Assembly: GCA_002840275.1 (NCBI GenBank)
Contig: PHAB01000004.1
Location: forward strand, 62,001 to 126,000
DNA length: 64,000 bases
Origin: Firmicutes bacterium HGW-Firmicutes-14
GTDB lineage: Bacteria > Bacillota > Thermincolia > Thermincolales > UBA2595
Reading direction: 5' to 3'
In this document: piece by piece, positions 16,794 through 63,212 of the stretch
How the letters are laid out: the number at the start of each line of letters is the position of its first letter
Numbering within the stretch: position 1 is the first letter of the stretch
Position numbers and translations under genes: made by a program
The notes under the pieces: generated by a model
Databases searched by the model: none
What the model saw: the letters and a program-made list of their open reading frames with translations, nothing else
What the model was told of the DNA's origin: nothing

Positions 16794-16838
16794 ATATTCA
16801 TCCCCAGTTTCCTGCAGAAATATCGCCACTGTTGAATA

Positions 16839-17891: not shown

Positions 17892-17967
17892 GGGTAATAC
17901 CCCCTCTATAAAGGTTTTAAATATCGAAATATTTTCCGCCCTCAAAATTATCGCCAGGCTTGATGTG

Positions 17968-27145: not shown

Positions 27146-27150
27146 CGGTT

Positions 27151-27789
27151 TCACTCCATTTCGTAAGGATGCGCTGTCAATCCAGTCTTACAGGTTAACT
27201 CCGATACTTTCTTTAGAGTTTTAGCTGGGTTTCCGCTGACAGCGGTAAAAGGCTCCACATCTTTTGCAACAACAGAACCTGCACCGACTAACGCACCCTC
27301 TCCAATTCTTATATGAGGGAGAATAGTTGCATTTGCCCCTATGATGGCTTTTTCACCTATTACTGGCCCCCTAAGGCAATCCTTAACCTTGGGGCACAGT
27401 GGATGAATCGCATTGGTCAGAGCAGCCTTTGGCCCAATCCAGCAACCCCTTTTAAGATGCGTATATTCAGGTATGAAGGCCTGGGAATGAATCCGTACAC
27501 CTTCTTCAATCTGCACATGATGTTCCACTACAGAATGAGTCCCGATACTGACATTGTCACCTATCAGGCAGTTTTCCCTGACCATAGCCCCGTGCCCGGT
27601 TGAAAAACCGTGCCCTATAACATTCCCCGCATAGATTACCGTATGTGACCTGATTACCGAATTATCGCCTATGACAGTCTTAAGTTCACCAGGCTCCGTT
27701 CCGGCAGGGGGCTCCCCAATAATCACAAAATCACCAACTACAATGTTTTTTCCTAGATTAACATTAGAATATACTTTAAATGTAGACAT
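27151..27789 (-). CDS. Left-handed beta-helix acyltransferase (WlbB/WbpD-like)
   Basis: The 212-residue protein is made of hexapeptide repeats (VYSNVNLGKNIVVGDFVIIG, then IGDNVSIGTHSVVEHHVQI and IIGANATILPHIRIGEGALVGAGSVVAKDV), the fold of acetyl-CoA-dependent sugar N-acetyltransferases. It would acetylate the amine put on by the next gene product. Its start overlaps the stop of the dehydrogenase gene (TAATG). Other acyl donors cannot be excluded. Confidence 0.87.
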   Translation of the reverse strand: MSTFKVYSNVNLGKNIVVGDFVIIGEPPAGTEPGELKTVIGDNSVIRSHTVIYAGNVIGHGFSTGHGAMVRENCLIGDNVSIGTHSVVEHHVQIEEGVRIHSQAFIPEYTHLKRGCWIGPKAALTNAIHPLCPKVKDCLRGPVIGEKAIIGANATILPHIRIGEGALVGAGSVVAKDVEPFTAVSGNPAKTLKKVSELTCKTGLTAHPYEME

Positions 27790-45283: not shown

Positions 45284-46054
45284 TTACCATGCAGTCCAAC
45301 CACCGTCTGCAATCAAATTCTGTCCGGTTATATATGAGGAGGCATTTGATGACAAGAAGAGAATTGGCCCTGCAATGTCCCGTGGACAAGCCATCCTTGC
45401 CATAGGTGTCCGATTACAATACGCCGTTACAAAACTTTCCTGTTGATTGTCAAATATCCCCCCAGGTGAAATACAGTTGACCCTTATATTGTCGGCAGCC
45501 AAGTAAGTGGCTAAATACCTGGTTAAGTTAATGATCCCGCCTTTAATTGCTGAATAAGCTGCCGGCATCGTCAAATTGGTTCCCTGGTAAATTGAGAAGT
45601 CCGGTCCTAACATACCATAGATAGAAGCAATGTTGATGATAGTCCCTGATTGAACCTCTCTCATTTTTTGGGCGGCCTTTTGACAGCATATAAAATACCC
45701 GTTTAAATGCATATCAACATTTTGTCTCCATGATTGGACAGGGATATTTTCAAACTTTACGCCCCAATCTGCTGTTCTTGGATAAGCATTATTAATCCAA
45801 ATATCAATCTTTTCATATTTGCTGATAAGGTCCTCTACCGATTTTTCATCACTGATATCAATGAATTCAGCGGTAGCAACACCTTGTAAGCCATCAACAA
45901 CTGCCTGGGCTTTGTCCAGGGAAATATCAGCCACAACCGTTTTTGCACCAAAATCGCACAGGCCTTTTGCAGTTTCTTTACCCAAAAGACCGGCGCCTCC
46001 GGTAATAATTGCAACTTTTCCCTCAAGTGAGAAAAGGCTCTTATATTCATTCAT
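45284..46054 (-). CDS. ptmA: Short-chain dehydrogenase, flagellin modification PtmA type
   Basis: The classic SDR of 256 residues has VAIITGGAGLLGKETAKGL, NNAYPR, a Ser in NIASIYGMLG and the catalytic YSAIKGGIINLTRYLA (Tyr-x3-Lys). It has the same gene order as ptmA next to ptmB in Campylobacter flagellin modification loci. Its reaction there is not settled as far as I know. It overlaps the start of the gene after legF by eight bases. Confidence 0.8.
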   Translation of the reverse strand: MNEYKSLFSLEGKVAIITGGAGLLGKETAKGLCDFGAKTVVADISLDKAQAVVDGLQGVATAEFIDISDEKSVEDLISKYEKIDIWINNAYPRTADWGVKFENIPVQSWRQNVDMHLNGYFICCQKAAQKMREVQSGTIINIASIYGMLGPDFSIYQGTNLTMPAAYSAIKGGIINLTRYLATYLAADNIRVNCISPGGIFDNQQESFVTAYCNRTPMARMACPRDIAGPILFLSSNASSYITGQNLIADGGWTAW

Positions 46055-46757
46055 CGTATCTTCCTTCCTCCCTGGACATTATAAATTCAACAAAAGTGAA
46101 ATCAAGCTCGGAATCTATATCTATGGAGCGTTCCTCCGGCATTAAATAAAGCAAAGTATCTTCATTAAAAATAGTGTCATTTGATAGTAACGCATCTCTG
46201 TTCCAAACATATATAGATGCATTCATATCATAGCATTTCGGAGAATCCTGTCTTCTTACAACAGGCTTCTCCAGAGGCTTTGATAACCGCACCACACCGT
46301 CCCCATCGATTTCAACCAAGTTAAAATAAGGTGACCGGCGAGCAGGCATCCCAGTAATTACGTTCGAAACTCTACGTTCTTCGAGAAGTTTAACTGCTTC
46401 CCTAATATCACTGGCCTTCCGCAAAGGAGAAGTTGCATCCAGATCAACGATAGTATTAAAGTGTTTCTGATACAATCTTTCTGCCTCCAAAACACAGTGT
46501 TGTATAGCAGGGATTTTGGCTGCACTGTCTGTTGCAAGGTGAACCGGTCTCTTTATCAGGCAGTCGGCTCCCCACCGTTTTGCAGTTTCAAGGATAATAT
46601 CTGAATCACTGCTGACAGCGATCAAATCAAACAGGTCAGAAGACTTTGCCTGGATAATGCTGTGTGCAATCAAAGGTTTCCCCATTAAATCACGGATGTT
46701 TTTATTTTTTACTCCCTTAGAATTTCCCCTTGCACAGATTGTACATAACCTGCTCAT
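46047..46757 (-). CDS. legF: CMP-nonulosonate (legionaminate-type) cytidylyltransferase
   Basis: It activates the nine-carbon acid with CMP. The start CTICARGNSKGVKNKNIRDLMGKPLIAHSI is the CMP-sialate synthetase motif, followed by LIAVSSDSD, VDLDATSPLR and YDMNASIYVWNRDAL. It is named ptmB in Campylobacter. The protein has about 236 residues. ATG 46757 lies just after GGGTGGGAG; the upstream reading is less likely. Confidence 0.87.
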   Translation of the reverse strand: MSRLCTICARGNSKGVKNKNIRDLMGKPLIAHSIIQAKSSDLFDLIAVSSDSDIILETAKRWGADCLIKRPVHLATDSAAKIPAIQHCVLEAERLYQKHFNTIVDLDATSPLRKASDIREAVKLLEERRVSNVITGMPARRSPYFNLVEIDGDGVVRLSKPLEKPVVRRQDSPKCYDMNASIYVWNRDALLSNDTIFNEDTLLYLMPEERSIDIDSELDFTFVEFIMSREEGRYDE

Positions 46758-46796
46758 TTCTCCCACCCTGTCTTTCAAAAACAAAATAAACATATT

Positions 46797-47732
46797 TCAG
46801 ATCAAATATTTTTCTCTAAATTTTAAAGCAAGTTTTAATACCTCAACACCCTGGGTTAAACTACATCTTGGCGGTACCCTGTCATGGATTACATCAATAA
46901 AATGTGCCATTTGTTTTTGATAAGTTAAATCCCTATATATCTCAAAATGTTCTTCCTTAGTTTTTAAGGGTCCCGTAATTGTGATTGTTCCTGTCAGAAG
47001 GTCACCTTCTATTACACTTCGGTCAGTTATAATTTCTATGGTCCGTTGAGGGACCGGCCGAAAATAATCCAAGTGAATTACACCAAGACATGTTTTATAG
47101 CGTAATATTAGCTCTGCCGTGTCTTCAACATCTATTTCCAGTCCGGAAATTTTTCCACACTGGCCGGTAATCTCTACAGGTTGGCCAAAAAGCCATGTAC
47201 AATAATCCAACTCGTGAATAAGATCCAGCACTACCCCTCCACCTTGATCTCTGGAGGCACTGTAGGTACTGCGATAATCTGTTTCCCTCCAATCAGATAA
47301 ATAAGAACCACAATAAGCAGAAAACCTTAATATCCTCTCATTAGTTACCTGAATAATTTCCCTTAATCTTTCAATAACGGGGTGAAATCTCAGGTTAAAC
47401 CCAACCAGAGTTTTTAGATTGTTTTGCTGAACGATGAATTTTAACTCTTCTATACCTGTCATAGAGTGGGAAACGGGTTTTTCGACGAAGAGGTTGATTC
47501 CCTGATTAGCACACTTTAATGCTGTTTCAACATGTTTATGTGTAGGATTGGAAATGATAGCAGCATCGAAAGTGATCTCTCTTACCTGCTCCCAGTGGGT
47601 AAAGACATTTTTTTCGTTAGATTGTTCCTTCTCTTTTTTGAAGAAATACCGCTTACTATCAGGCACCATTTCCTTCAAGATCCGCAGATGTCTTTTGCCA
47701 ATAGAACCCATACCGATAAACAGTACATTCAT
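46797..47732 (-). CDS. ptmF: Gfo/Idh/MocA-family protein, PtmF position
   Basis: The NAD-binding start VLFIGMGSIGKRHLRILKEM is followed by AAIISNPTHKHVETALKCANQGINLFVEKPVSHS with the EKP motif. The C-terminal domain has DQGGGVVLDLIHELDYCTWLFG. The 311-residue protein sits between ptmE and legF as Cj1330 does in Campylobacter, where it belongs to flagellin modification. It may reduce or oxidise a precursor sugar. The start follows the ptmE stop by one base. Confidence 0.8.
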   Translation of the reverse strand: MNVLFIGMGSIGKRHLRILKEMVPDSKRYFFKKEKEQSNEKNVFTHWEQVREITFDAAIISNPTHKHVETALKCANQGINLFVEKPVSHSMTGIEELKFIVQQNNLKTLVGFNLRFHPVIERLREIIQVTNERILRFSAYCGSYLSDWRETDYRSTYSASRDQGGGVVLDLIHELDYCTWLFGQPVEITGQCGKISGLEIDVEDTAELILRYKTCLGVIHLDYFRPVPQRTIEIITDRSVIEGDLLTGTITITGPLKTKEEHFEIYRDLTYQKQMAHFIDVIHDRVPPRCSLTQGVEVLKLALKFREKYLI

Positions 47733-47733
47733 T

Positions 47734-48816
47734 TCAAATGCTCCACTCCATTACATTTCCTTCAAAAAAGCGCAAAGTTTCCCGGTATTCTTCCCATTGT
47801 CCGATATCAAACCATTTTCCGTGATGCGGGTAAACTCCTATTTTACCCTTGTCTAATTCAATTCTCCTAAACAGTTCTGTCATATCAATTTTTTCATCAT
47901 CACCGATTAAATCCAGGACAGCCGGTTCTAAAACATAAAGTCCTGTATTTACCAGGAAATGCAGATTGGGCTTTTCATCTATGTTTAACAATTTTTGCCC
48001 TTCCGTTTTGAGAACTCCATAGGGAATTGTAAATTCTTTGACTGAACCCACAATTGTCAGCATATTTCGCTTTTCCCGGTGATACCTGATTAAATCCAAA
48101 TAATTTAGTTCCAGAATAACATCACAGTTGGTCACCACAAAAGTATCATTTATATGATTTCTGTGTAAACTGAGAGGCCCGGCTGTCCCCAGGGGATGGT
48201 CTTCACATATATAATCAACACTATATGGACGCCTGTCGGATTCTGCAAAGTACATTTTAACGATCTCAGCTTTGTATCCCAATGACAGTACAAAATTACG
48301 GAATCCCTGCTGATGGAACTTGTCCATAATGATTTCAACAATAGGCTTATCTCCTAAAGGAATCATTGGCTTGGGAAGAATCTTTGTAAAAGGGTCAAGC
48401 CTGGTACCTTTCCCGCCAGCCATAATTATTATCTTTTCTTTTTGTTCCTTTGGAACATTTTCAAAACAATCTGTCCAAATAATAAGGTCCTGCACCCTGC
48501 CGCATTTGTCAATTAACGGTACATGCCGAATGCTGTGCTGCCGCATAATTGTTTTCGCTTGGACAACCGATGACCCGGTGGGTAATGAAAGAGGTGCTGT
48601 ATTCATAACTTCAGATACCGGAATATAAAAGTTAACTCCCTTCAACATGGCTCTTCTTATGTCGCCATCAGTTATAATTCCTATCAGCTTCCCGGATGCA
48701 TCTGTTACCAGGAGAATCTGTAAGGCTGCCTCGTTCATTTTTAAAATACTGTCGAACAAGATATCTCCAGAGGTTACGGTTATTCTATTGATTTGTTCCT
48801 TTGTTCTCCGTCTCAA
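47734..48816 (-). CDS. ptmE: Nucleotidyltransferase with CBS pair, PtmE type
   Basis: Two CBS domains (about 1-115) with LVTDASGKLIGIITDGDIRRAM and HVPLIDKCGRVQDLI precede a sugar nucleotidyltransferase (about 125-350) with IIIMAGGKGTRLDPFTKILPKPMIPLGDKP and EDHPLGTAGPL. In Campylobacter the PtmE enzyme makes GDP-glucosamine for legionaminic acid. The CBS pair may bind an adenine nucleotide as a regulator. The start is TTG at 48816, overlapping the formyltransferase stop. Confidence 0.88.
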   Translation of the reverse strand: MRRRTKEQINRITVTSGDILFDSILKMNEAALQILLVTDASGKLIGIITDGDIRRAMLKGVNFYIPVSEVMNTAPLSLPTGSSVVQAKTIMRQHSIRHVPLIDKCGRVQDLIIWTDCFENVPKEQKEKIIIMAGGKGTRLDPFTKILPKPMIPLGDKPIVEIIMDKFHQQGFRNFVLSLGYKAEIVKMYFAESDRRPYSVDYICEDHPLGTAGPLSLHRNHINDTFVVTNCDVILELNYLDLIRYHREKRNMLTIVGSVKEFTIPYGVLKTEGQKLLNIDEKPNLHFLVNTGLYVLEPAVLDLIGDDEKIDMTELFRRIELDKGKIGVYPHHGKWFDIGQWEEYRETLRFFEGNVMEWSI

Positions 48817-49823
48817 TTGTTATCACCCTGTTTTCTCAGCTGATTTACCAGCTTTTCAAGTTCTAAAAGACGATTTTCATATTCCCTAAGTTTTAACCAT
48901 GGATTAAGTCCTAATCTGCTTCCTAACATACATACCGGAATATCACCGGGAAATATATTTCCGTCTTGTGCAATATTGACGATACCTTTAACCCGAATGA
49001 TACTATCACCCGTTTTCACTATAATTCCTGTTTGCTCTTTACCGATAATTTCTCCCGGAGTCCCAATATAAGCCGGCGCTTCCGGTATTATCTCGGTTGA
49101 TAAAACTGCGATTTCCTTATCATTAAGATAAGTTCTGGCACACGGGCCAGGAACCGTTATTCCCCTGACAAAGTTATGAATTTGCTGGCTGGACCAGTTC
49201 CAATCAAGCCATTCATCTCCGTTCAGACGGCGGCCGCAATAAAACCCGACCGGGTGAATTGCTGCCTGACTAATTGGTTCGGCCACTCCATTGAAAATCT
49301 GTTTTAATGCCTCGAATAAAGCATCAGCACATAAATTACTTGCTTTCTCCAGCAAGCTTGCATAATCATCATCCTGATCAATGTTGCCAAACCTCTGAAC
49401 AATAATATCCCCTGTATCAATTCCCTCATCAATGTAATGCACAGTTACCCCAAAACTGCTTTCTCCGTTAATTAATGCCCAGTTAAGAACGTTGCGTCCC
49501 CGGTAAAAAGGCAGTGCTCCGGCATGACAGTTAATAAATCCCAATGGTGCAAGGTTTATAATCTCTTTTTTAAGAATCTGATCAAAAGACATGGATACAT
49601 TTAAATCCGGATTGAATCTTTTTATTTCATCAATGAAGCCCTTTGCATTGACGCTTGCATGAGACAAACAGGGTATTTGCAGCTTTTGAGCAAATTCCTT
49701 TAAAACAGGATCTGCGTTTTCATGCCTGGTTACAATAAAGACCACATCGAAATTACTGTCTTCCAGGATTTTGTTCAGGGCTAAATGAGACCACAGGCCA
49801 TCACCGAAATATCCTATTTTCAT
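48813..49823 (-). CDS. Sugar N-formyltransferase-like enzyme
   Basis: The N-terminal formyltransferase domain (about 1-190) has the Asn-His-Asp set: FINCHAGALPFYRGRN and YIDEGIDTGDIIVQ. This is the fold of methionyl-tRNA formyltransferase and sugar N-formyltransferases that use 10-formyltetrahydrofolate. A C-terminal Fmt_C-like domain follows (about 205-300) with WLDWNWSSQQIHNFVRGITVPGPCART. It is coupled by ATGA to legI, inside the legionaminic-type unit. No GNAT acetyltransferase of the LegH type is present here, so formylation of an amino sugar is a likely job. It is not the housekeeping fmt by context. Confidence 0.8.
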   Translation of the reverse strand: MKIGYFGDGLWSHLALNKILEDSNFDVVFIVTRHENADPVLKEFAQKLQIPCLSHASVNAKGFIDEIKRFNPDLNVSMSFDQILKKEIINLAPLGFINCHAGALPFYRGRNVLNWALINGESSFGVTVHYIDEGIDTGDIIVQRFGNIDQDDDYASLLEKASNLCADALFEALKQIFNGVAEPISQAAIHPVGFYCGRRLNGDEWLDWNWSSQQIHNFVRGITVPGPCARTYLNDKEIAVLSTEIIPEAPAYIGTPGEIIGKEQTGIIVKTGDSIIRVKGIVNIAQDGNIFPGDIPVCMLGSRLGLNPWLKLREYENRLLELEKLVNQLRKQGDNN

Positions 49824-50893
49824 TGAATCACCTCATCAGCCTCATAATCCCTGTCCGCAATTTTACCGAGCCATTCCCAATAACAAAACGGAGAGATTCC
49901 ATATCCCGGCCTTTTTACAGTAAGATTATTTTCAGTAAATACCTCTCCTCGTTTAATTCTCTTTTGGGCAACCAAACTCTTACGTATAACCGAAAGATTT
50001 TTTAACTCAGAATCTGTTGGTTTCTTCTCCCGAACCCCTAATGCGTCATCCACTTGGCGAATAGAACGGATCATTGCTGCCAATTCATTTGGCTCCAAAG
50101 AAGCAGCATGGTCAGGCCCGGATAAGTTCCGGTCCAATGTAAAATGCTTTTCTACGACAACTGCTCCAAGCGCGGCTGCGGCAATAGAGACTGCAATTCC
50201 GAGCGTATGGTCCGAATAACCAACCGGCAGGCCAAATACATTACTCATAAGTTTCATGGCCAGCAGGTTTATATCCTTGAACTTAGCTGGGTATTCCGTG
50301 GTGCAGTGTAATAAAACCACATGTTTTTTTAAAACATTCTTCCCTTCACTGGATAAATATGCTTCTTTAAAAACTTCAACAGCCGGAGTTTCTTTTGTTC
50401 TCAGGTACCCAAAGGCCAAAACACCTAAAGCCAGTTCAATTTCTTTTAAATCGGAAACCCCGGTTGAAAGAATAATCGGTTTCCCGGTTCTGGCAGCATG
50501 TAACAGCAAAGGAGCATTGGTTATTTCTCCGGAAGGAATTTTTAAGCGAGGTAGCCTCATTTGTTGAGCAAGTAAGTCAATACTGTCTATGTCAAATGCG
50601 GTCGATAAAAATTGGATACCTCTTTCATTACAATGTTCAACCAGCAACTCATGCGATTTTTGATCCAATTCCAGTTTTTTTAGCATTTCAAATTGTGATT
50701 CTGATTCATCTGTCTGCTCCATTTGATACTGAGCCTTAGGCGCATTTTTACTTACCAGCATTTCAGCCTTAAAAGTCTGAAATTTGACTGCATCAGCACC
50801 TGATTCAACTGCCACATCAATCAACTGTTTCGCCATTTCTATGGACCCATTATGATTAACCCCTGCTTCAGCTATGATATAAGTATGTTTCAT
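49820..50893 (-). CDS. legI: Nonulosonate synthase (NeuB/LegI family)
   Basis: The NeuB barrel has YIIAEAGVNHNGSIEMAKQL, AVKFQTFKAEMLVSKNAPKA, LPVGYSDHTLGIAVSIAAAALG and VVEKHFTLDRNLSGPDHAAS. The SAF domain at the C-terminus has RKSLVAQKRIKRGEV and VKRPGYGISPF. It joins phosphoenolpyruvate to the 6-carbon sugar released by the gene product before it. It differs at many places from the copy at 16839-17891, so each may have its own substrate. The length of 357 is normal. Confidence 0.9.
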   Translation of the reverse strand: MKHTYIIAEAGVNHNGSIEMAKQLIDVAVESGADAVKFQTFKAEMLVSKNAPKAQYQMEQTDESESQFEMLKKLELDQKSHELLVEHCNERGIQFLSTAFDIDSIDLLAQQMRLPRLKIPSGEITNAPLLLHAARTGKPIILSTGVSDLKEIELALGVLAFGYLRTKETPAVEVFKEAYLSSEGKNVLKKHVVLLHCTTEYPAKFKDINLLAMKLMSNVFGLPVGYSDHTLGIAVSIAAAALGAVVVEKHFTLDRNLSGPDHAASLEPNELAAMIRSIRQVDDALGVREKKPTDSELKNLSVIRKSLVAQKRIKRGEVFTENNLTVKRPGYGISPFCYWEWLGKIADRDYEADEVIQ

Positions 50894-50936: not shown

Positions 50937-52103
50937 TCAGAAGCATATATCATAAAATTTCTTCATTAAAACTGTATCTATATCCACTGTCTTAAGGAAC
51001 TCTTTAATTTGAGCAGATGTATGACCACATCCATATAACGAGGACACCCCGGGAAGCATAATTTGAAATTCATGAGATAATGCCTTTTTTATAGCGGAAA
51101 TTATCGATTGGGAATTTTCAGTGCAATCAATAATTGATGCCGCTTTCAGCCTTCCTGTCTGCCTGTTTCCTATATTTATGCTTGGCCTCTTAAGAGCAGG
51201 GGCTTCAATTATTCCACTCGAAGAATTTCCTATTACCAAATCCATAATTTTCATTGCGCTCAGATAATTTAGCTGCCCCAGGGACGTATAAACTGTCACC
51301 CTGCCCGGATGTTTTGAAGCGTAAACATCTATCATTCGACCGATTATCCGGCCATAAGTATCTGCATTATGCTTGGTGATAATCACCTTGGCTTCCGGGA
51401 AATGGTCAAGTGCCTTAAAAATCTCTGTCAATGCCTTTTGAGGGCCGGATTTTTCTAATGTTTCCGGGTGGTAAGTGACTAGAAAGTTAATCTGCCCGAA
51501 TTTAAAATTTATTGACTGCTCTAATTCTTCCCTGTTTAATAATTTTAACCGTTTTATGTTATCCAGTCCGGGAGCGCCGTAATTTAGCACCCGCTCCGGC
51601 ATTTCTCCCAACTGTATAACCCTCCTGCGATAATCTTCTGCTGCAACAAAGTGAAATTGGGACATTTTTGTGATTGCATGTCGTATAGCTTCATCTATTA
51701 CGCCCTCTGTTGTCTCTCCCCCGTGTATATGAGCAATTGGAACACTTGCAATCAATGCGGCCTGTGCAGCAGCCAATATTTCATAACGGTCCCCTAACAA
51801 TACCAAAATGTCTGGCTGCAGCCCGTCCAATGCACTGGCAAATCCTATGGTACCTATTCCAATGGATTGTGTAATTCCAACAGGTGAATCACTGGACATT
51901 AACATTTCCACTTTTGCATTTAAAAAAAATCCGTCTTCCTCAATAATCTTATAAGTAAGTCCAAATTCATGAGAGAGGTGCATTCCTGTTGCTATCACCT
52001 GTAACTCGAGGGCAGGGTCTGCCTGAATTTCTTTTAAAAGCCAAAACAAAAGACCATAATCGGCTCTTGAACCTGTCACAACACAAATTTTACGTTTTTT
52101 CAT
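50937..52103 (-). CDS. legG: Hydrolysing NDP-sugar 2-epimerase (NeuC/LegG family)
   Basis: It removes the nucleotide and inverts C2 to give the substrate of the synthase. The start KICVVTGSRADYGLLFWLL and the region PIAHIHGGETTEGVIDEAIRH are typical; further on are LVTYHPETLEKSG and LVIGNSSSGIIEAPALKRPSINIGNRQTGR with the active-site Ser run. The length of 388 is normal. The ATG overlaps the end of legC after GGAGAAGG. Confidence 0.93.
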   Translation of the reverse strand: MKKRKICVVTGSRADYGLLFWLLKEIQADPALELQVIATGMHLSHEFGLTYKIIEEDGFFLNAKVEMLMSSDSPVGITQSIGIGTIGFASALDGLQPDILVLLGDRYEILAAAQAALIASVPIAHIHGGETTEGVIDEAIRHAITKMSQFHFVAAEDYRRRVIQLGEMPERVLNYGAPGLDNIKRLKLLNREELEQSINFKFGQINFLVTYHPETLEKSGPQKALTEIFKALDHFPEAKVIITKHNADTYGRIIGRMIDVYASKHPGRVTVYTSLGQLNYLSAMKIMDLVIGNSSSGIIEAPALKRPSINIGNRQTGRLKAASIIDCTENSQSIISAIKKALSHEFQIMLPGVSSLYGCGHTSAQIKEFLKTVDIDTVLMKKFYDICF

Positions 52104-53274
52104 ATCCTTCTCCTAACGTGGCACTGCTCGGAAGGTTTATTATCCTGCCTTCCAAACTTTCGGCCGTAACTAAATTCATCCTTGGACATGAACTAAACAT
52201 CTGCAGCCGGGAGAGCAGTCGCCATACCGGCCTGGTGGAGATTCCCATTTCATTGCTCATCTCAATCAATTTATCGAGCTGATTCTCATGGCCCTCATCC
52301 AATATTAATGTATTCAGCCAGTAATTACTCCGGGCGTAAGGCGGTTCTTCAAATACCGTGATTCCGTCCACACATTTAAATGATGTCAAATACTTTGAGG
52401 CTAACATGCGTTTCGTATTTAAAAAATCAGGCAATTGCTCTATCTGCGCACATCCTAACGCTGCATTAATATTGGGAAGCCGGTAGTTATAGCCCACCAT
52501 ATCGTGGACAAAGAACCACTGATGGGGCTTTTTGGCCGTTGTTGTCAGGTGCTTGGCCAACAAGGCAAGTGGTTTTTGATTAGTTAGTATAGCCCCACCG
52601 CCCCCTGTAGTTATTATCTTGTTACCGTTAAAGCTTAGAGCGGAAGCAATTCCAAAATTGCCTGCATGCCGCCCCTTGTATAATGAACCAAGCGCCTCAG
52701 CAGCATCCTCTATCATTTCTAAACGAAATTTTTCGCAAATTTCCATCAGGGGGTCTATATCAACCGGGTGGCCAAAAGTATGCATCGGTATAACCGCTTT
52801 AATTCTTCGGCCTGTTATCATATTGAAACACCCTTGGGGTCCAACACGGGCATTTTCCTTTAAGTAGTCCGCAAGTTTATGTGAGTCAATACCCAGGGTA
52901 TTGATATCTATATCAACAAAATGAGGAACAGCTCCGCAATATGTGACCGCATTTGCCGTTGCGACAAAGGTCAAAGCAGGAACAAACACTTCATCTCCCG
53001 GTTCGACTCCAGCCAGTTTCAAACAAATGTGTAATGCTGCAGTGCCGTTAACAGTAGCCACCGCATATTTTACCCCGGTATATTCTTCCAGTTTTGCCTC
53101 AAATAATTCCACAAATCTGCCCACAGAAGAAACCCAGCCTGTATCAAGACATTCTTTTACATATTCCCACTCGTTTCCATTGAATTGCGGTTCGTGCAAT
53201 CCAGAGGCCCCTTTGTTTGAAAGAACATCCTTCAACACTTGTAAAACTCTATTTAGGTCAAGGGGTGAGTTCAT
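52090..53274 (-). CDS. legC: DegT/DnrJ aminotransferase, LegC type
   Basis: It adds an amino group to C4 of the keto sugar. Motifs are ATVNGTAALHICLKLAGVEPG, VFVPALTFVATANAV, MIEDAAEALGSLYKGRHAG and the PLP lysine in LSFNGNKIITTGGGGAILT. The N-terminal NKGASGLHEPQFNGNEWEYV is typical of LegC. The ATG overlaps the legB stop (ATGA). The length of 394 is normal. Confidence 0.9.
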   Translation of the reverse strand: MNSPLDLNRVLQVLKDVLSNKGASGLHEPQFNGNEWEYVKECLDTGWVSSVGRFVELFEAKLEEYTGVKYAVATVNGTAALHICLKLAGVEPGDEVFVPALTFVATANAVTYCGAVPHFVDIDINTLGIDSHKLADYLKENARVGPQGCFNMITGRRIKAVIPMHTFGHPVDIDPLMEICEKFRLEMIEDAAEALGSLYKGRHAGNFGIASALSFNGNKIITTGGGGAILTNQKPLALLAKHLTTTAKKPHQWFFVHDMVGYNYRLPNINAALGCAQIEQLPDFLNTKRMLASKYLTSFKCVDGITVFEEPPYARSNYWLNTLILDEGHENQLDKLIEMSNEMGISTRPVWRLLSRLQMFSSCPRMNLVTAESLEGRIINLPSSATLGEGYEKT

Positions 53275-54275
53275 ATGTTATATACCCCGGCTTTATAATT
53301 TTTTAAGTTTGATGGCTGCTGAAACCACTCCACCGTTTCAACCAGCCCTTTTCTAAAGCCTTCCTTCCCACCATAAGCCGGTTCCCATCCAAGGAGTGTT
53401 TTTGCCAGGGAATTATCTGCTCTTAGCCGGTCTACTTCGCTTGCTGCAGGTCTAATCCGGCCAGAATCAGATTCTATATCTATTTCCGTATTCATTATCC
53501 CGGTTATAATCTTCACAACTTCTCCTATTGAAATCTCGTAATTACTTCCAATATTAATCACTTGGCCAATGGAACGGTCTGATTCGAGAACTGCTGTAAA
53601 ACCATTGATTGTATCTTTTATATAATTAAAATCCCGGGTGGGCGATAAAACACCCAGTTTAATTTTTCGGTGCCCCTTCAAAATCTGTGTAATAATTGTG
53701 GGGATTACCGCCCTGGCAGACTGGCGTGGTCCATATGTATTAAAAGGCCTGATTATTGCAACAGGGGTTGCAAAAGAATTATAAAATGACAAAGCCATCT
53801 GATCGGCTCCAATTTTGGAAGCAGAATAAGGGGATTGTCCCTGTAATGGATGGTCTTCTTTAATAGGAACAAATTTGGCTGTGCCATAAACTTCACTTGT
53901 AGATGTATGAACTACCTTAGATACTTCCAATTCGCGTGCTGCCTGTAAAATATTCAGTGTTCCTTTTATATTGGTGTCAACATAGGTATCCGGGGAATGG
54001 TAGGAATACGGAATCCCGATAAGTGCTGCAAGGTGAAGGACCGCATCACACCCGCACATAGCCTTCTTAACACCATGAGGGTCCCTGATATCTCCAGCAA
54101 ATACTTCCAAGCTGTCCTTAACTTCCTTTGCTGCACAATCCAGCCAGCCCCAAGAATTAAAAGAATTGTAAAAAACAAATGCCCTAACATCGTAACCAAG
54201 ACCAACCAGGTGTTCAGTCAAATGTGAACCAATAAAACCATCTGCTCCTGTGACCAAAACCTTATTAAATTTCAC
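53271..54275 (-). CDS. legB: NDP-GlcNAc 4,6-dehydratase, LegB type
   Basis: The extended SDR starts KVLVTGADGFIGSHLTEHL, with STSEVYGTAKFVPIKEDHPLQGQSPYSASKIGADQMA (Tyr-x3-Lys) and AIIRPFNTYGPRQSARAVIPTII. It matches LegB, which removes water from GDP- or UDP-GlcNAc to give the 4-keto-6-deoxy sugar. GTG at 54275 is chosen because GGAGG lies seven bases before it, inside the end of the NHL gene; only three bases separate it from that stop. It is about 334 residues. Confidence 0.9.
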   Translation of the reverse strand: MKFNKVLVTGADGFIGSHLTEHLVGLGYDVRAFVFYNSFNSWGWLDCAAKEVKDSLEVFAGDIRDPHGVKKAMCGCDAVLHLAALIGIPYSYHSPDTYVDTNIKGTLNILQAARELEVSKVVHTSTSEVYGTAKFVPIKEDHPLQGQSPYSASKIGADQMALSFYNSFATPVAIIRPFNTYGPRQSARAVIPTIITQILKGHRKIKLGVLSPTRDFNYIKDTINGFTAVLESDRSIGQVINIGSNYEISIGEVVKIITGIMNTEIDIESDSGRIRPAASEVDRLRADNSLAKTLLGWEPAYGGKEGFRKGLVETVEWFQQPSNLKNYKAGVYNI

Positions 54276-54277
54276 CT

Positions 54278-56257
54278 TTACACCTCCAGATATCCCTGAG
54301 TAAAACAATGAATCATATTGTTTGGATTATCTACAATAACCACTTTGTTTTTAAAAATCTTGATATTTACAGGTTTTGCGTTTTTAGCCGACATTCTATA
54401 GGAGTAAATTAGATTAAAGTTCTTATCAAACTTATGAAATCCTCCCGTTTCAGAAATATAGATGTACCCTTGTTTGTCTAATGCAACCGAATACGGATTG
54501 TTAAATGAAACATTCTCTTTGCATTTGTTCACAACATCCATCGTATTACCTGTATCTTCGATGACAATCTTATTTTCATCATAGCTAAGATACCAAGTTC
54601 TATGATTAGCTCTGTCTATTAATATTTCATAGGGAACTCTGGAAAAATTAATATCAGGTATGTTAAAATTATCCAGGAATTCCCCCTGTTTAGAATAAAT
54701 ATGAATATTGTTCTTGATGTTATCTCCAACCAGGATTTGATTTTCATCTGCCGTTATCCAAACCGGGCCTTCTAAATTTTCCCCAAAGGAATCAATATAT
54801 TCACCGTTTGTGCTAAAGACCTGGATTCTATGGTTGCCATAATCACAGACAAACACCTTGTCTTCCCGGTCAATCAGAATCCCAATTGGTCCATTAAACT
54901 GCCCCTCTTTTGTACCATAATCGCCAATTTGCATCAATGGTTCCCCGGAATAACTAAATTTTTGAACTCTATGATTAAAACTATCAGTTACAAAAAAGTT
55001 ACCTTTACTGTCAAAATCAACTTTATAAGGCTGGTTAAATTGGCCAAGTTCAGTTCCATAACCGCCGATTTCATAATCTTCATAGACATAGTTCACTTTT
55101 ATAAAATCAATAATTTTTTCTTTCAATATGTCATTGTCGGTATTCTTTACTTTATTATCTAAATAGTTATAGTATTGCTTTTCACAGAGCTGCAAAGGTA
55201 AAGACCTGAATTGATGTTTCATAATATTAAAGCCTTTATCATAAAACTTGTTATCAAATAAATAATCAATAATCTGTATGTTTTCATGATGTTCTTTAAT
55301 AGCAAGCCCGGAGACCTTTTCTATTACGCAATTAAAAGTTTCAAATTCGTTTTCTTTGAAAGTATATTTAGCTAGTATCTCATATCCAAGGCTCTCATGA
55401 ACATGCCCAACATTGTTTGCCTCAATTATCCCTCTCTCTGTCCGGGCATCAGTATCTCCTAATTCAATTATTCGTCTTCCGGAGACAGCAAAAAGTTTGT
55501 CAATATGTAATGCAAGTAACAAATATTCATCAATTTTCTCAAAGGCTTCAATAAAATATCCGTGCTTGGAATATTTTACAATCTTATGACTAACATCATC
55601 AAAAACATAAACAAAATCCCTCTTAGTTGCTAAGCTTATAGGTTTAACAAACTGATGGGGATTTTCCCCCTTTTGACCTATCATGAGAATATAATCAGCT
55701 TTGCCGTTAAACTTTTGTATCCGTCCATTACCGTTATCTACAACATAGATATAATTTTCATCATCAATGGTAATGGACAAAGGGTATTTGAAATTCCCCA
55801 GCTCACTTCCCTGCTCCCCGACGGTGGCCAAGCACTTCCCGTCTGGATTAGTCCTCTTCACCCTATGATTCCCGCAATCCACCACCCACAGATTCCCATC
55901 CCTGTCAACCGCCACATCAGTCGGCTCGGCAAACTCATCCTCCCCAGAACCATAGCTGCCAAACGAATATAAAAACTCCCCTTCCTTTGACAGCACCTGG
56001 ATCCGGTGGTTATAGCTATCAGCTACAAATATCCTGCCATCCCTGTCCATATCCATCCCGGCCGGGTAAAAGAATTCTTTCTCTCCACTTCCCTTTGACC
56101 CAATAGTCTTCACGAGTTCACCTGAAGTATCAAAAACCTTTATACTGTGGCCAAACTTGTCCAATATATATATGTACTCCCCTACAAACAGCATATCTGC
56201 GGGGTAAATATCTTCATATTCACTCAAATCCAGCAAAGTTTTTGTCTCAAGAACCAC
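54278..56257 (-). CDS. NHL-repeat beta-propeller protein
   Basis: The protein of about 659 residues has no signal peptide or membrane helix. NHL repeats of about 45 residues fill the first 235 (FFYPAGMDMDRDGRIFVADSYNHRIQVL, then FAEPTDVAVDRDGNLWVVDCGNHRVKR and YPLSITIDDENYIYVVDNGNGRIQKF), and a second set lies at about 395-655 (FNQPYKVDFDSKGNFFVTDSFNHRVQKF and others). A helical part without repeats lies between (about 280-390). NHL propellers bind protein or sugar and a few are enzymes. GTG 56257 follows GGAGG by seven bases. It is the gene directly before legB. Its presence in a flagellar glycan unit is unusual; role unknown. Confidence 0.85.
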   Translation of the reverse strand: MVLETKTLLDLSEYEDIYPADMLFVGEYIYILDKFGHSIKVFDTSGELVKTIGSKGSGEKEFFYPAGMDMDRDGRIFVADSYNHRIQVLSKEGEFLYSFGSYGSGEDEFAEPTDVAVDRDGNLWVVDCGNHRVKRTNPDGKCLATVGEQGSELGNFKYPLSITIDDENYIYVVDNGNGRIQKFNGKADYILMIGQKGENPHQFVKPISLATKRDFVYVFDDVSHKIVKYSKHGYFIEAFEKIDEYLLLALHIDKLFAVSGRRIIELGDTDARTERGIIEANNVGHVHESLGYEILAKYTFKENEFETFNCVIEKVSGLAIKEHHENIQIIDYLFDNKFYDKGFNIMKHQFRSLPLQLCEKQYYNYLDNKVKNTDNDILKEKIIDFIKVNYVYEDYEIGGYGTELGQFNQPYKVDFDSKGNFFVTDSFNHRVQKFSYSGEPLMQIGDYGTKEGQFNGPIGILIDREDKVFVCDYGNHRIQVFSTNGEYIDSFGENLEGPVWITADENQILVGDNIKNNIHIYSKQGEFLDNFNIPDINFSRVPYEILIDRANHRTWYLSYDENKIVIEDTGNTMDVVNKCKENVSFNNPYSVALDKQGYIYISETGGFHKFDKNFNLIYSYRMSAKNAKPVNIKIFKNKVVIVDNPNNMIHCFTQGYLEV

Positions 56258-56268
56258 TTCCAAGCCTC

Positions 56269-57420
56269 CTACCCCACAATCCCCTTCACCACATCCACCA
56301 CATACCGCAAGTCTTCTTCCGCCATGGCCGGATACAGCGGCAGTGACACAATCCTCTTAAATACATCCTCTGTCACCGGAAGCATCCCTTCCCCATAGCC
56401 AAAGGTCTTCCTATAATATGGGTGCAGGTGAACCGGAATAAAGTGGACACTCGTCCCCACATTCATCCTTCCCATCTCTTTAATCAACTCATCCCTGCCC
56501 ACCGGCGCCCGGTCTTCCAGCATTATCACATAAAGGTGCCTTCCATGAACTGCTCCGTCTATAACTCCCGGCAGTCTTATCCACCCTATCCCAGCAAACT
56601 CCCTGTCATAGTACGCCGCGTATTCCTCGCGCAGTTCCCTCCACCACTCCACCTTGCTCAGCTGGTGTATCCCCAGGGCAGCTTCAATGTCTGTCATATT
56701 ATATTTAAATCCCGGATAGAGCACTTCATAATACCACGAACCCTCAGCGGAATATCTCTTCCACGCATCCCTGGAGATGCCGTGCAGGCTTAAAACCCTT
56801 ATCTTCTCCGCCAGTTCATCATTATCAGTAGTGACCATCCCGCCTTCACCTGTGGTCAGGTTCTTTGTGGCATAAAAGCTGAAAGAAGCAATATCCCCCA
56901 GGGTGCCAACCATTTTCCCTTTATAACGGGCGCCTATTGCATGGGCGGCATCTTCAATCACCAGTAAATTATGGCTCCCGGCTATTTTGTTGATTGCATC
57001 CATATCACAGGGCTGCCCGGCGTAATGTACCGCTATGATGGCTTTTGTCCTGGGGCTGATTTTCTTTTCAATTTCTTCAGGGTTTATATTCAAGGTCTGT
57101 GGGTCAATATCGGCAAAGACAGGGGTGGCCCCCACATGGACAATCACATTGACAGTGGAACAGAAGGTCAGGGGTGAGGTAATAACTTCATCCCCCGGGC
57201 CAATCCCTGCCGCCGCCAGGGCCAGGTGCAGCCCGGCTGTACAGGAACTCACGGCCATAGCGTGTTCGCATCTGATATATTTCTTGAATTTCTCCTCAAA
57301 ATGCCCTGTCTTGGGCCCCCTGGTCAGCCAGTCTGATTTCAGGGAATCGATGACTTCATGTATCTCGTCATCCCCGATTAACGGCCTGGCAAAAGGCAGA
57401 AACTGTTCCCTCTTTTGCAT
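56269..57420 (-). CDS. pseC: DegT/DnrJ aminotransferase, PseC type
   Basis: It would aminate C4 of a 4-keto-6-deoxy UDP-sugar made by the gene before it. Motifs are FARPLIGDDEIHEVIDSLKSDWLTRGPKT at the start, AVSSCTAGLHLALAAAGIGPG, LVIEDAAHAIGARYKGKMVG and the PLP lysine in FSFYATKNLTTGEGGMVTT. The DWLTRGP segment is typical of PseC. ATG 57420 follows GGGGG by five bases, which leaves a gap of 41 bases to pseB. The length of 383 is normal. Confidence 0.9.
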   Translation of the reverse strand: MQKREQFLPFARPLIGDDEIHEVIDSLKSDWLTRGPKTGHFEEKFKKYIRCEHAMAVSSCTAGLHLALAAAGIGPGDEVITSPLTFCSTVNVIVHVGATPVFADIDPQTLNINPEEIEKKISPRTKAIIAVHYAGQPCDMDAINKIAGSHNLLVIEDAAHAIGARYKGKMVGTLGDIASFSFYATKNLTTGEGGMVTTDNDELAEKIRVLSLHGISRDAWKRYSAEGSWYYEVLYPGFKYNMTDIEAALGIHQLSKVEWWRELREEYAAYYDREFAGIGWIRLPGVIDGAVHGRHLYVIMLEDRAPVGRDELIKEMGRMNVGTSVHFIPVHLHPYYRKTFGYGEGMLPVTEDVFKRIVSLPLYPAMAEEDLRYVVDVVKGIVG

Positions 57421-57461
57421 GTGAACCCCCATTTTTATGTATAATCTTCCATTCGGTATAA

Positions 57462-58535: not shown

Positions 58536-58548
58536 CGGTATCACCTCA

Positions 58549-60384
58549 TCAGTTGTTAGCATTTGTTCCTCTATTCAGTGCTTCTAAAGCCTTGTTAAGC
58601 AAGTCAGCAGTATATTTGCTGTAATATGTTATTGCTGAATATATCTCCTTGGCTGAGATAAGCCTCAGTTTCGTCCCTTCGGCTGTACCGCCAAGCGTCT
58701 TCACCTTCAGCAGCGTAGGTTTTAATACGTCCCCGGTAAACTGCAGGGCAGCCATCCGGTCAACCCTGGCATCACTCTTGGCCAGCTTCTGCAAGCCCTC
58801 CAGTACCTTCCGGGTTTCACCCAGGGAACCATATTCCTCTGCGATCCTGACCACCAGTTTCAGGGTGTTCTGTCCCAGGTCCTGCAGTTCCCTGAGTCCT
58901 GATTCGAGCTTTTCCAGGAGCCTCCGGGCGTTTCTTAAGTTTCTTGATTGCCGGTTCTTCGTATAATAATCATCAAGCCTTGCGGATACCTGCCTTTCCT
59001 CCCGGCAGTACCTGAAGAGGACCTCTCTGAACAGCATACGTTCAGCCCCCTCGATCATGGCGCCGCCTTCGGTGGCGTTTATAAACCGGGTCTCCCCGCA
59101 GTCCCTGATGTAGTTTTCAATCCACTTGTTGAAGGAATATAAAACTCTGGAAGTAAGAACCTGTCCACCGAAATAACCCGGTAGGGTGACCTGGTTGAGG
59201 TCATCATCTTTGGCTTCCTGCCGGCCTCTTTCATAAAGGGTTCCCCCGGCATGGGTCCTCCCGCCGGTAAAGGCCAGGTCCTGGCCCATAAAGACGATAG
59301 GATTTCCTCCCAGCCTGACCGCCAGGTCCAGGGCCACAGTAGCCACTGAACCGCCGCTCCGTACTCTGCCCACAGGCCCGATGTTTTTTTCCACCCAGTT
59401 AATTATTGAATTGCCATAAGTGCATATCAGCTTTGACCCCTGATATGTTTCAAATATCCCTGGGTGGCTGGTGGGCTCGGCTACCAGGTAAATACCTTCC
59501 ACATCAAGTCCTTTGAAATGCTCAAAGTTTTTCTCCCGGGGGTCTATGGAAACAACGATGTCAGGTCTTATACCCCTGCCCAGAAGCGCTCTAAGGGCTG
59601 TCCCCACACAGATAATCAGGGCTTTTTCCTTAGCCAGCCTGAGGTATTCGACATTTTTGTCCAGGGACGGCCCGGCCGAAACGAGAATTATGGGTTCCCC
59701 CCGGAATTTCCCGAAGAGCCCCTCAACACCGGGATTTCGTAAGACCTCCGGCAGGTTTTCCAGGGTATTGGTGTACCATTTTTCAGCTTCATTCGTAACG
59801 GTTATCTGGTTCAGAACCATCTGGTTCAGGGTACCGCGGATAATTTCCAGGGCAGTGTCATAATATTTTCCGTTCCGTTCCACTGAAGGCCTGTGGTCAA
59901 GAAAACCCATTCCTTGCAATGTATTTATATCAACGGCTGACGCCAGTTTTGACACAAGGGAGTCGGTAGTTCCAACTAATAAAATAAATCTTTTGGAAAG
60001 CAACAGTTCTTTTAAATCGCTGTACTGCATTGCGGCTTTAAACACTGCCGGGTCAGCTTCCAGAACAACAATAATGTGTCCAGCCGAAGTGTGGCTCAAG
60101 AGTTCTGTAACATGATATCCCAGGCCAAAACCAGACACTATAAGGAGGTTGTTCTTATTGATATCAACGGAACCTGCCAGCCTCCGGGCTTCTTTGCCCG
60201 GGTCATAGGCGCTGTGGAACTGCACATACTGCCCGTCTTCTTTCTGCACCCTCAGGCTTGTCTGCCCGTTTTTTGCCGGAAAAACATTATATATCTGTGG
60301 GTCAACTGCCACACTGTCAATTACTTCAGCCAGTTCTCCATCTTTTTTTTTCAAAATGGCAAGGTTCTGTTCATATAGTCCCAT
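58549..60384 (-). CDS. maf: Maf-type flagellin nonulosonate transferase (DUF115)
   Basis: Motility accessory factor proteins transfer pseudaminic or legionaminic acid to Ser and Thr of flagellin in the cytoplasm. The 611-residue protein has the DUF115/MptE-like core (about 200-460) with EPIILVSAGPSLDKNVEYLR, RGIRPDIVVSIDP, GSVATVALDLAVRLGGNPIVFMGQDLAFTGGRTH and FINATEGGAMIEG. An N-terminal part of the Maf type (about 1-190) contains LLIVSGFGLGYHVTELL. A helical C-terminal part follows. It lies first in the sugar unit, downstream of fliD, which fits flagellin as the target. GAGGAATAGACTG precedes the ATG. Confidence 0.92.
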   Translation of the reverse strand: MGLYEQNLAILKKKDGELAEVIDSVAVDPQIYNVFPAKNGQTSLRVQKEDGQYVQFHSAYDPGKEARRLAGSVDINKNNLLIVSGFGLGYHVTELLSHTSAGHIIVVLEADPAVFKAAMQYSDLKELLLSKRFILLVGTTDSLVSKLASAVDINTLQGMGFLDHRPSVERNGKYYDTALEIIRGTLNQMVLNQITVTNEAEKWYTNTLENLPEVLRNPGVEGLFGKFRGEPIILVSAGPSLDKNVEYLRLAKEKALIICVGTALRALLGRGIRPDIVVSIDPREKNFEHFKGLDVEGIYLVAEPTSHPGIFETYQGSKLICTYGNSIINWVEKNIGPVGRVRSGGSVATVALDLAVRLGGNPIVFMGQDLAFTGGRTHAGGTLYERGRQEAKDDDLNQVTLPGYFGGQVLTSRVLYSFNKWIENYIRDCGETRFINATEGGAMIEGAERMLFREVLFRYCREERQVSARLDDYYTKNRQSRNLRNARRLLEKLESGLRELQDLGQNTLKLVVRIAEEYGSLGETRKVLEGLQKLAKSDARVDRMAALQFTGDVLKPTLLKVKTLGGTAEGTKLRLISAKEIYSAITYYSKYTADLLNKALEALNRGTNANN

Positions 60385-61379: not shown

Positions 61380-63140
61380 CTATTTCATCCCCCAGGTTGA
61401 ACTGACTTGGGCGCTCAACCAGGCGCTTTGGTTCTGGAAATTGCTCATAATGGTTTCCAATTGGCTGAACTGGCGCCAAAGGCGGTCTTCTTTGAGTTCA
61501 AGCCGGTATTCAAAATCCTTGATCCGCTCTTCCATATCCCGGATCTGGGATGACAGTATACCGGAACTGCCGGCCCGTCCCATTATTTCTCCGGTGGCTG
61601 ATGTGACGGAATTCAGGTAATCATTCAGTTTAACTGCTATTCCACCGGTTGCTTCCATAAATATGCCGGCAACTGCATCAGGGTTATTCTGGATGGCAGT
61701 CTTCAGTTTGTCTTTGTCAATCTGCAGTTTGGAATTCAAAGCTGCAGATGCCGAATCTGTCGGCATGCCGGTTGTAATCCCTATATCTGACAACTGGTCA
61801 TAATTATGGGGCAGTCCGCTGACCGGATTGAAGATGGATGACCTGAGGTAGGACTGAACCCTTCTTAAGGTGCTGTCGGTCCGCAGGATACCGCTTTTCC
61901 TGTCAAAGTCACTGAGGGGTTCCCTGACTTTGTTCTCCGTCAGTTTTGTATTTAACCAATCCATTACAGTATTGTATTCATTGACGAAATCTTCGACATT
62001 CTTGATTATCTTATCATTGTCCTGGGAAACAGTAATGGTGGTTGTACCGGCCTTTAGCAGGTTAAAAGTAATCCCGTTGATTTCAAAACTGTTGCTGTCC
62101 CTGTTCATATCAACACCGTTGAGGTTGAATGCAGACGAGGTGCCTAAAGTCTGAACAGCGCCGGATATATTGGTAACCGTCAGGAAATTGGAAGTATCAG
62201 TTGCCTTGCCCAGGGTAATTGCATCAGACCCGGTTGTCTTCGAAGTTATGGAAATAGTATCACTTTCACTGTCATAAAAAGCTGTAACCCCTGCTGACGA
62301 ATTGTTTATCTTGCTGATAATATCGTTCAGGGACTCTGTCGCCGTATCTACTGAAAAAGTATAATCATTTATTGTGAAATAACCGCTGGTAAAACCCAGG
62401 CCCGTATCCGCCAGGTTTCTGAATTCACCGGATTCGGTCCCGTCCACAACCACTGCCGCATCTAGTTTGGCCGCAGCCAGGAACCCGCTGGTATCCTCAC
62501 CAACAGTGATGGTGGCCTCCGAGCCGGTAGTCTTCTGGGTCAGAACAATCCTGTCTCCGGAAAGGACAGCCTTTACGCCGGCAGTTGAGTCGTTTATCTT
62601 GTTCAAAACTGTGTTAATTGTATCATCCGCATCCACTGTAATAGTAACATCATTGACCTTGAATGCTCCTGCCGTAACCTCGGATTCCAGGCGGGTAGCC
62701 GCAGTCCCTCCGCTAAAGGCGGCATTCGGGTCGGCATCCACCCCGGCCCCGGAATTCAATTCAGCAGTGCCTGTAAGTGTGGCATAGGTCCCGTCAGGGA
62801 TACCTATAGCGCCAGTACTGCTTACCTTTGTAGCGGTTGCCAGGCTGGTAACCTCCAGGGTATAGGTACCGTTGACGGCAGTCGCGCCTGTTGTTACAGT
62901 GGCTACTTCAGAGTCAGACGAAGCGCTTTTCTTTAAATCAAATGAAGTGGACAAGGTCAGTGCCGATGCTTTTTTCTGCAGATTCAGCAGCATGTTCCGG
63001 AAATCCAGGAGAGCGCTCTTGCGCCATTCCAGGACGTTTTTCTTATCCTCAAGCCTGGTCAAAGGCATTCGTTCCAGAGCCATCAACTGCTTGACCAAAC
63101 CCTCTGTATCTAATCCGCTGGCAATTCCTCCTAATCGCAA
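61380..63140 (-). CDS. fliD: Flagellar filament cap protein FliD
   Basis: FliD (HAP2) caps the filament and helps flagellin fold at the tip. The start LRLGGIASGLDTEGLVKQLM is typical, followed by the FliD N-terminal coiled-coil (about 20-70). Two flagellin hook-IN type repeats lie in the middle (about 170-240 and 260-340), and the FliD_C domain follows (about 340-560) with DFVNEYNTVMDWLNTKL and a C-terminal coiled coil. TTG 63140 follows GGAGGAGG by eight bases; GTG 63149 is too close to that site. About 586 residues, within the family range. It is the last conserved flagellar gene before the island. Confidence 0.94.
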   Translation of the reverse strand: MRLGGIASGLDTEGLVKQLMALERMPLTRLEDKKNVLEWRKSALLDFRNMLLNLQKKASALTLSTSFDLKKSASSDSEVATVTTGATAVNGTYTLEVTSLATATKVSSTGAIGIPDGTYATLTGTAELNSGAGVDADPNAAFSGGTAATRLESEVTAGAFKVNDVTITVDADDTINTVLNKINDSTAGVKAVLSGDRIVLTQKTTGSEATITVGEDTSGFLAAAKLDAAVVVDGTESGEFRNLADTGLGFTSGYFTINDYTFSVDTATESLNDIISKINNSSAGVTAFYDSESDTISITSKTTGSDAITLGKATDTSNFLTVTNISGAVQTLGTSSAFNLNGVDMNRDSNSFEINGITFNLLKAGTTTITVSQDNDKIIKNVEDFVNEYNTVMDWLNTKLTENKVREPLSDFDRKSGILRTDSTLRRVQSYLRSSIFNPVSGLPHNYDQLSDIGITTGMPTDSASAALNSKLQIDKDKLKTAIQNNPDAVAGIFMEATGGIAVKLNDYLNSVTSATGEIMGRAGSSGILSSQIRDMEERIKDFEYRLELKEDRLWRQFSQLETIMSNFQNQSAWLSAQVSSTWGMK

Positions 63141-63212
63141 GGTACTCACCTCCTCCTGTCCGGTATCGTCTAATATAGATGGACAGACACCAGCTAAAGT
63201 TTTAACCTGCAT

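Follow-up and report, generated by a model that had tools for sequence, protein, structure and literature searches.

A candidate N-formyltransferase in the place of the acetyltransferase LegH in a legionaminic acid operon

In the 64,000-nucleotide stretch of DNA analyzed here, henceforth called the window, we found a gene, X, the product of which is very probably a nucleotide-sugar N-formyltransferase taking the role of LegH in the synthesis of legionaminic acid (Leg), formylating the 4-amino group made by LegC and thereby giving CMP-Leg5Ac7Fo. As the X family occupies the place of LegH in many other phyla, it is probable that this flagellar sugar is widespread in a formylated form that has been overlooked, with X being the probable enzyme for N-formyl legionaminic acids. 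An acetyl group is then not a safe assumption in predicted Leg pathways, and surface sugars predicted from clusters with X in the LegH position should be redrawn with formyl. This surface decoration would thereby depend on the folate one-carbon pool and not on acetyl-CoA. X can furthermore serve as a marker gene, although one easily mistaken for that of a tRNA enzyme, and the proposed chemistry is open to test by a single enzyme assay or a single flagellin mass spectrum.

The leg operon and gene X

The window contains the full operon legB-legC-legG-legI-X-ptmE-ptmF-legF-ptmA (Table 1), and the gene order given in the preliminary description is real. LegB, LegC, LegG and LegI were called by NCBIfam cut-offs, which all four exceeded, and PtmE, PtmF, LegF and PtmA by domain content and order. 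The LegC of the operon is the sole one in the genome at E<=1e-100. Since a Maf-like transferase gene, fliD and flaG also lie within the window, the leg operon is part of a flagellar glycosylation island. A PtmE homolog is present in the operon, and the precursors are presumed to be GDP-linked. In the same island WlbE-, WlbB- and WlbA-like genes follow each other at window positions 26045-28865, a row that is a probable 3-acetamido sugar module, and a 661-residue NHL-repeat (beta-propeller) protein is encoded at 54278-56263, between the pseC-like gene and legB and overlapping the latter, which is odd company for sugar genes.

Table 1. Positions in the window of gene X, the leg operon, flagellar genes and the second nonulosonate set
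Feature	Position	Strand	Basis or set
X, nucleotide-sugar N-formyltransferase (proposed LegH replacement)	48813..49823	(-)	Pfam, NCBIfam, structure model
legB, 4,6-dehydratase	53271..54308	(-)	TIGR04180 524.3 bits, cut-off 475
legC, C4 aminotransferase	52090..53274	(-)	TIGR04181 532 bits, cut-off 420
legG, hydrolysing 2-epimerase (NeuC type)	50937..52103	(-)	TIGR03568 469.7 bits, cut-off 235.9
legI, NeuB-type legionaminic acid synthase	49820..50893	(-)	TIGR03569 494.5 bits, cut-off 399.65
ptmE, CBS + nucleotidyltransferase (GDP-GlcNAc pathway entry)	47734..48816	(-)	Pfam NTP_transferase + CBS
ptmF-like GFO/IDH/MocA oxidoreductase	46797..47732	(-)	Pfam
legF, CMP-nonulosonate synthetase	46047..46793	(-)	Pfam CTP_transf_3; PseF model 130 bits, under cut-off 205.7
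ptmA-like SDR dehydrogenase	45284..46054	(-)	FlagModPtmA 160 bits, under cut-off 350; Pfam adh_short_C2
Maf/PseD-type flagellin nonulosonate transferase	58549..60384	(-)	Pfam MptE-like, Maf_flag10_N; NCBIfam FlagModPseD 115.9 bits, under cut-off
fliD	61380..63212	(-)	Pfam FliD_N, FliD_C
PseB-like	57462		second nonulosonate set
PseC-like	56269		second nonulosonate set
PseI-like	16839		second nonulosonate set
fused PseF-PseG	15009		second nonulosonate set

Gene X has an ATG start and encodes 336 residues, consisting of Formyl_trans_N (PF00551, 4.2e-27) and Formyl_trans_C (8.7e-16) domains as recognized with Pfam, and a C-terminal helix; with NCBIfam, every match was under its cut-off. Both the intact Asn-His-Asp formyltransferase site and the ATGA coupling to legI that had been described earlier could be verified, with Asn98, His100 and Asp136 having no variation in a 50-sequence alignment and the start of X overlapping the stop of legI by the 4 bases ATGA. 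The stop of X and the start of ptmE likewise overlap by 4 bases. An AlphaFold2 model of X, built with 50 homologs, had a mean pLDDT of 95.1, and the folds closest to it were those of the ArnA formyltransferase domain (TM 0.76-0.85), Fmt, QdtF/FdtF and WbkC. Judged by this modelled fold together with the Asn, His and Asp residues, X is a member of the folate-dependent formyltransferase superfamily. A chance open reading frame was ruled out by the domains and by homologs in 80 loci. The C-terminal helix (residues 308-333; window 48813-48900) is shared with the relatives at L023 and L028 and absent from other family members.

X and acetyltransferases in leg clusters

The relatives of X, sought in GTDB genomes with a three-sequence alignment, were found at the 80 loci with 46-61% identity and in about a dozen phyla (Bacillota, Pseudomonadota, Bacteroidota, Campylobacterota, Cyanobacteriota, Spirochaetota, Planctomycetota, Chlorobiota, Elusimicrobiota, Bdellovibrionota and others), and a search of a plasmid collection gave no match at 1e-50. 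Their linkage to leg genes extends across these phyla, with legI, legG, legC or ptmE nearly always a direct neighbour. Neighbour counts cover 79 of the 80 loci, L036 having been left out with its gene unparsed, probably through a failure of the ORF caller; at most two genes away from X were LegI at 68 loci, LegG at 52, PtmE at 40 and LegC at 35, and the gap between X and the adjacent leg gene had a median of -4 bases.

LegC was sought in 398 genomes from the window's phylum, of which 86 matched at E<=1e-100 and 45 were over the cut-off, and up to 20 kb was inspected around 40 of the LegC matches. X is absent from all of these same-phylum loci. LegI or LegG is encoded at 38 of them, and at 34 of these 38 the leg genes are accompanied by a NeuD/PglD or GNAT acetyltransferase. 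Among the leg clusters with X across phyla, 62 of 73 were without an in-cluster sugar N-acetyltransferase and 11 had one, and in the same-phylum sample no acetyltransferase was present in the cluster of any of the three leg genomes with X (the window's genome, G139 and G381). With Fisher's test, p was about 1e-14 in the mixed comparison (11/73 versus 34/38), the two sets of which were sampled differently and with kinship ignored, and 0.003 in the same-phylum comparison, which includes only three X genomes and also ignores kinship. Locus L141 has the order of the window, legB-legC-legG-legI-NeuD-ptmE-ptmF-legF, with a NeuD over the TIGR03570 cut-off where X stands, and L139 and L177 likewise have legI-NeuD-ptmE. 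Five NeuD-type proteins, three of them encoded at loci lacking X and two at X-bearing loci, were compared with the NeuD/PglB/VioB model, and all were over its cut-off. Three further same-phylum leg clusters (L145, L148, L149) have a GNAT related to a protein of the window's genome on C39.

X and a NeuD/PglD (or GNAT) acetyltransferase are hence largely mutually exclusive in leg clusters and found in the same slot, which supports substitution at the N-acylation step. The replacement of the acetyltransferase by a formyltransferase, as put forward in the preliminary description, gains support from this comparative genomics, its chemistry being predicted, while the view of LegH as a GNAT only had to be abandoned, with LegH in the window's phylum mostly being of the NeuD/PglD hexapeptide type.

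The leg cluster of the window contains none of the usual acetyltransferases. That the window would have no GNAT-like gene agreed with our finding none on the whole contig, but a hexapeptide (LbH) acetyltransferase does exist at 27151..27789, scoring 99.7 against a NeuD/PglD cut-off of 160.8; it was ruled out as LegH by this score and by its WlbE/WlbA-like 3-amino-sugar operon neighbours. A LegH gene elsewhere in the genome, in combination with flagellin sugars bearing only acetyl groups, had been seen as speaking against the proposal, and the genome was searched family by family. No NeuD/PglD over the cut-off was found there, the best match (61.9 bits, its gene lying downstream of one for an aminoacyl-tRNA synthetase) probably being CysE, but at least 15 GNATs are encoded elsewhere in the genome, including PseH-family GNATs on C65 (94.3 bits, over the cut-off) and, more weakly, on C39 (66.9 bits). 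On contig 65 a second PseC-like aminotransferase and the PseH-type GNAT overlap by one base (L016:15812-17496), as part of a polysaccharide cluster distant from the flagellar island. These PseH-family GNATs could work in the second nonulosonate pathway or conceivably in that of Leg, and with the PseH-type GNAT on another contig an acetyltransferase could thus act in trans. No acetyltransferase for the second nonulosonate set (window 15009-17945 and 56269-58562) was found beside its genes or in the window. A PIG-L deacetylase was not found in the leg cluster, the sole match in the genome being on C13.

Proposed pathway, precedents and alternative readings

The order of the steps catalyzed by LegB, LegC, LegH, LegG, LegI and LegF is established (PMC6388019, PMC6137143). 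With X in the LegH position, LegB and LegC would convert GDP-GlcNAc to GDP-4-amino-4,6-dideoxy-GlcNAc, whereupon X would transfer formyl from N10-formyltetrahydrofolate to the 4-amino group, and LegG would take off GDP and invert C2 to give 2-acetamido-4-formamido-2,4,6-trideoxymannose. LegI would add PEP to form Leg5Ac7Fo, LegF would convert this to CMP-Leg5Ac7Fo and the Maf-type transferase would finally move the sugar to flagellin. In the finished nonulosonate, N7 derives from the C4 amine of the hexose. The formyl donor, the exact substrate, position 7 and flagellin as acceptor are what we infer. LegH, a GNAT in Campylobacter and a NeuD/PglD hexapeptide protein in many leg clusters, has the pathway step, the operon slot and the proposed acceptor amine in common with X, but differs in having an unrelated fold, acetyl-CoA as donor in place of N10-formyltetrahydrofolate and an N-acetyl instead of an N-formyl product.

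PseJ is a formyltransferase of a pseudaminic pathway, where it takes the place of PseH. Like X it belongs to a nonulosonic acid pathway, but PseJ (PDB 6ci2/6ci4) has about 217 residues and a UDP-linked altrose derivative as substrate, and it matched X with E 2.5e-10 over 94 residues and with nothing over the C-terminal domain. WbkC, the GDP-perosamine 4-N-formyltransferase of Brucella, was among the close sequence and fold matches of X, and its structure was solved in complex with GDP-perosamine, as given by the title of the PDB entry; a related fold is therefore capable of acting on a GDP-sugar at its 4-amine. WbkC and the ArnA formyltransferase domain N-formylate the 4-amine of a nucleotide sugar, as is proposed for X, but on different sugars, in different pathways and with 25-28% identity. 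In the flagellin glycosylation island of Geobacillus, fmt3 occupies the place of the acetyltransferase gene fdtC (PMC5109656), in likeness to X although in a dTDP-3-amino-6-deoxyhexose pathway. N-formyl groups on nonulosonates are already known (PMC6388019), and Halorubrum sp. PV6 carries 5-N-formyl-Leg on its S-layer glycan and has a leg cluster with a predicted formyltransferase gene, termed a possible modifying enzyme (PMC6137143). Judged by that cluster description, the archaeal case resembles ours in combining a predicted formyltransferase gene within a leg cluster with an N-formylated Leg, but the formyl was reported at N5 and a separate gene was named LegH. In a 2026 survey of Leg and Pse clusters in Clostridium, LegH was recognized by its acetyltransferase domain and formyl went unmentioned in the main text (PMC13317340), and a literature search that most subscription journals lay outside found no account of an X-type enzyme serving as N-acylase in Leg synthesis. 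N-formyl-Leg, PseJ and WbkC are precedents for the role proposed for X.

A role of X as second methionyl-tRNA formyltransferase, or its being a dead paralogue, appears extremely unlikely. The curated model with the highest score for X is indeed TIGR00460 (fmt), though its 162.7 bits are under the cut-off of 201.5, and the genome has three Formyl_trans_N proteins, namely X, Fmt and a PurN-like protein assigned by size and score. The genuine fmt is however located at a separate locus, L014, where it follows def, a pairing not true of X with its place in the leg operon. X is also without the PDRPxGRG stretch (PDRPRGRG in the genome's own Fmt), which we take to be the tRNA-binding loop of Fmt, its catalytic residues are invariant across phyla, and X with its relatives forms a single clade in the tree (support 100/98), separate from Fmt. 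The fmt gene elsewhere, the missing loop and the leg linkage together ruled out X as an Fmt paralogue.

That X would act on the C4 amine of the second (pseudaminic/Sps-type) pathway in the island, or in both pathways, with the leg pathway borrowing an acetyltransferase in trans, is an unlikely reading, although it would agree with the PseB-, PseC- and PseI-like proteins and fused PseF-PseG being encoded in the window without an adjoining acetyltransferase and with PseJ (PDB 6ci2 and kin) working in a pseudaminic pathway. PseJ is short (192-217 residues in PDB) and matches X over the catalytic core only, and at most six genes from X we found LegI at 69 of 79 loci as against PseC at 3 and PseI at 4, so that a PseJ-like linkage to pseudaminic genes is not seen for the X family, but pse-like genes share the island in the window. 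We also find it improbable that ordinary Leg5Ac7Ac is made with a PseH-type GNAT (C65 or C39) in trans, while X formylates another amine or acts at a later step. Such a route could draw on the two PseH-family GNATs with the scores given above, and the three same-phylum leg clusters with the C39-related GNAT point in the same direction, but the C65 enzyme has an aminotransferase of its own, with which it is coupled in a different polysaccharide cluster, X of the relatives sits in the acetyltransferase slot, and the leg cluster is without a deacetylase to free another amine. Our preferred reading accordingly has X formylating the amine made by LegC.

Possible additional acylation genes in leg clusters

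In some X clusters X is not the sole acylase, a NeuD-type protein also being encoded in 11 of the 73. Loci with both X and a NeuD-type protein were L031, L052, L054, L055, L064, L072, L073, L082, L088, L094, L095, L096 and L104. Six X-coexisting NeuDs from outside Bacillota formed one clade (100/100) apart from the LegH-slot NeuDs, which suggests that they have another task, and those of Lachnospiraceae and Clostridium were intermixed with the LegH-slot NeuDs in the tree. Some members of the non-Bacillota clade have an unusual C-terminal end.

Some clusters contain in addition a PIG-L deacetylase, either alone or together with a second formyltransferase in which the catalytic Asn is missing. 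This second protein, encoded directly after LegG and paired with PIG-L, was seen at L043, L049, L059, L068, L091 (L091:13039-14597 being an example), L092, L098, L169, L174 and L176; it groups in a separate clade (100/100), and Gly occupies the catalytic Asn position (G-F/Y-H-P). It may swap the acetyl group on what will become N5, or have a function other than formyl transfer, and PIG-L with or without this protein may be a separate module acting at N5. Tentatively, one can imagine a modular acylation code of leg clusters, in which an exchangeable slot would determine the group at N7 (acetyl with NeuD/PglD or a GNAT, formyl with X) and the group at N5 could be re-set by PIG-L and the second, non-canonical formyltransferase. 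Leg5Ac7Fo, Leg5Fo7Ac and Leg5Fo7Fo would then all be made in about a dozen phyla, and the genes responsible would be ones scoring as methionyl-tRNA formyltransferase.

A relative of X with 51% identity was seen in a Campylobacter sp. (L097). A clade-specific 'methionyl-tRNA formyltransferase' of Campylobacter coli has been read as a change in translation initiation (PMC12102941), and this protein may be an X-type sugar formyltransferase.
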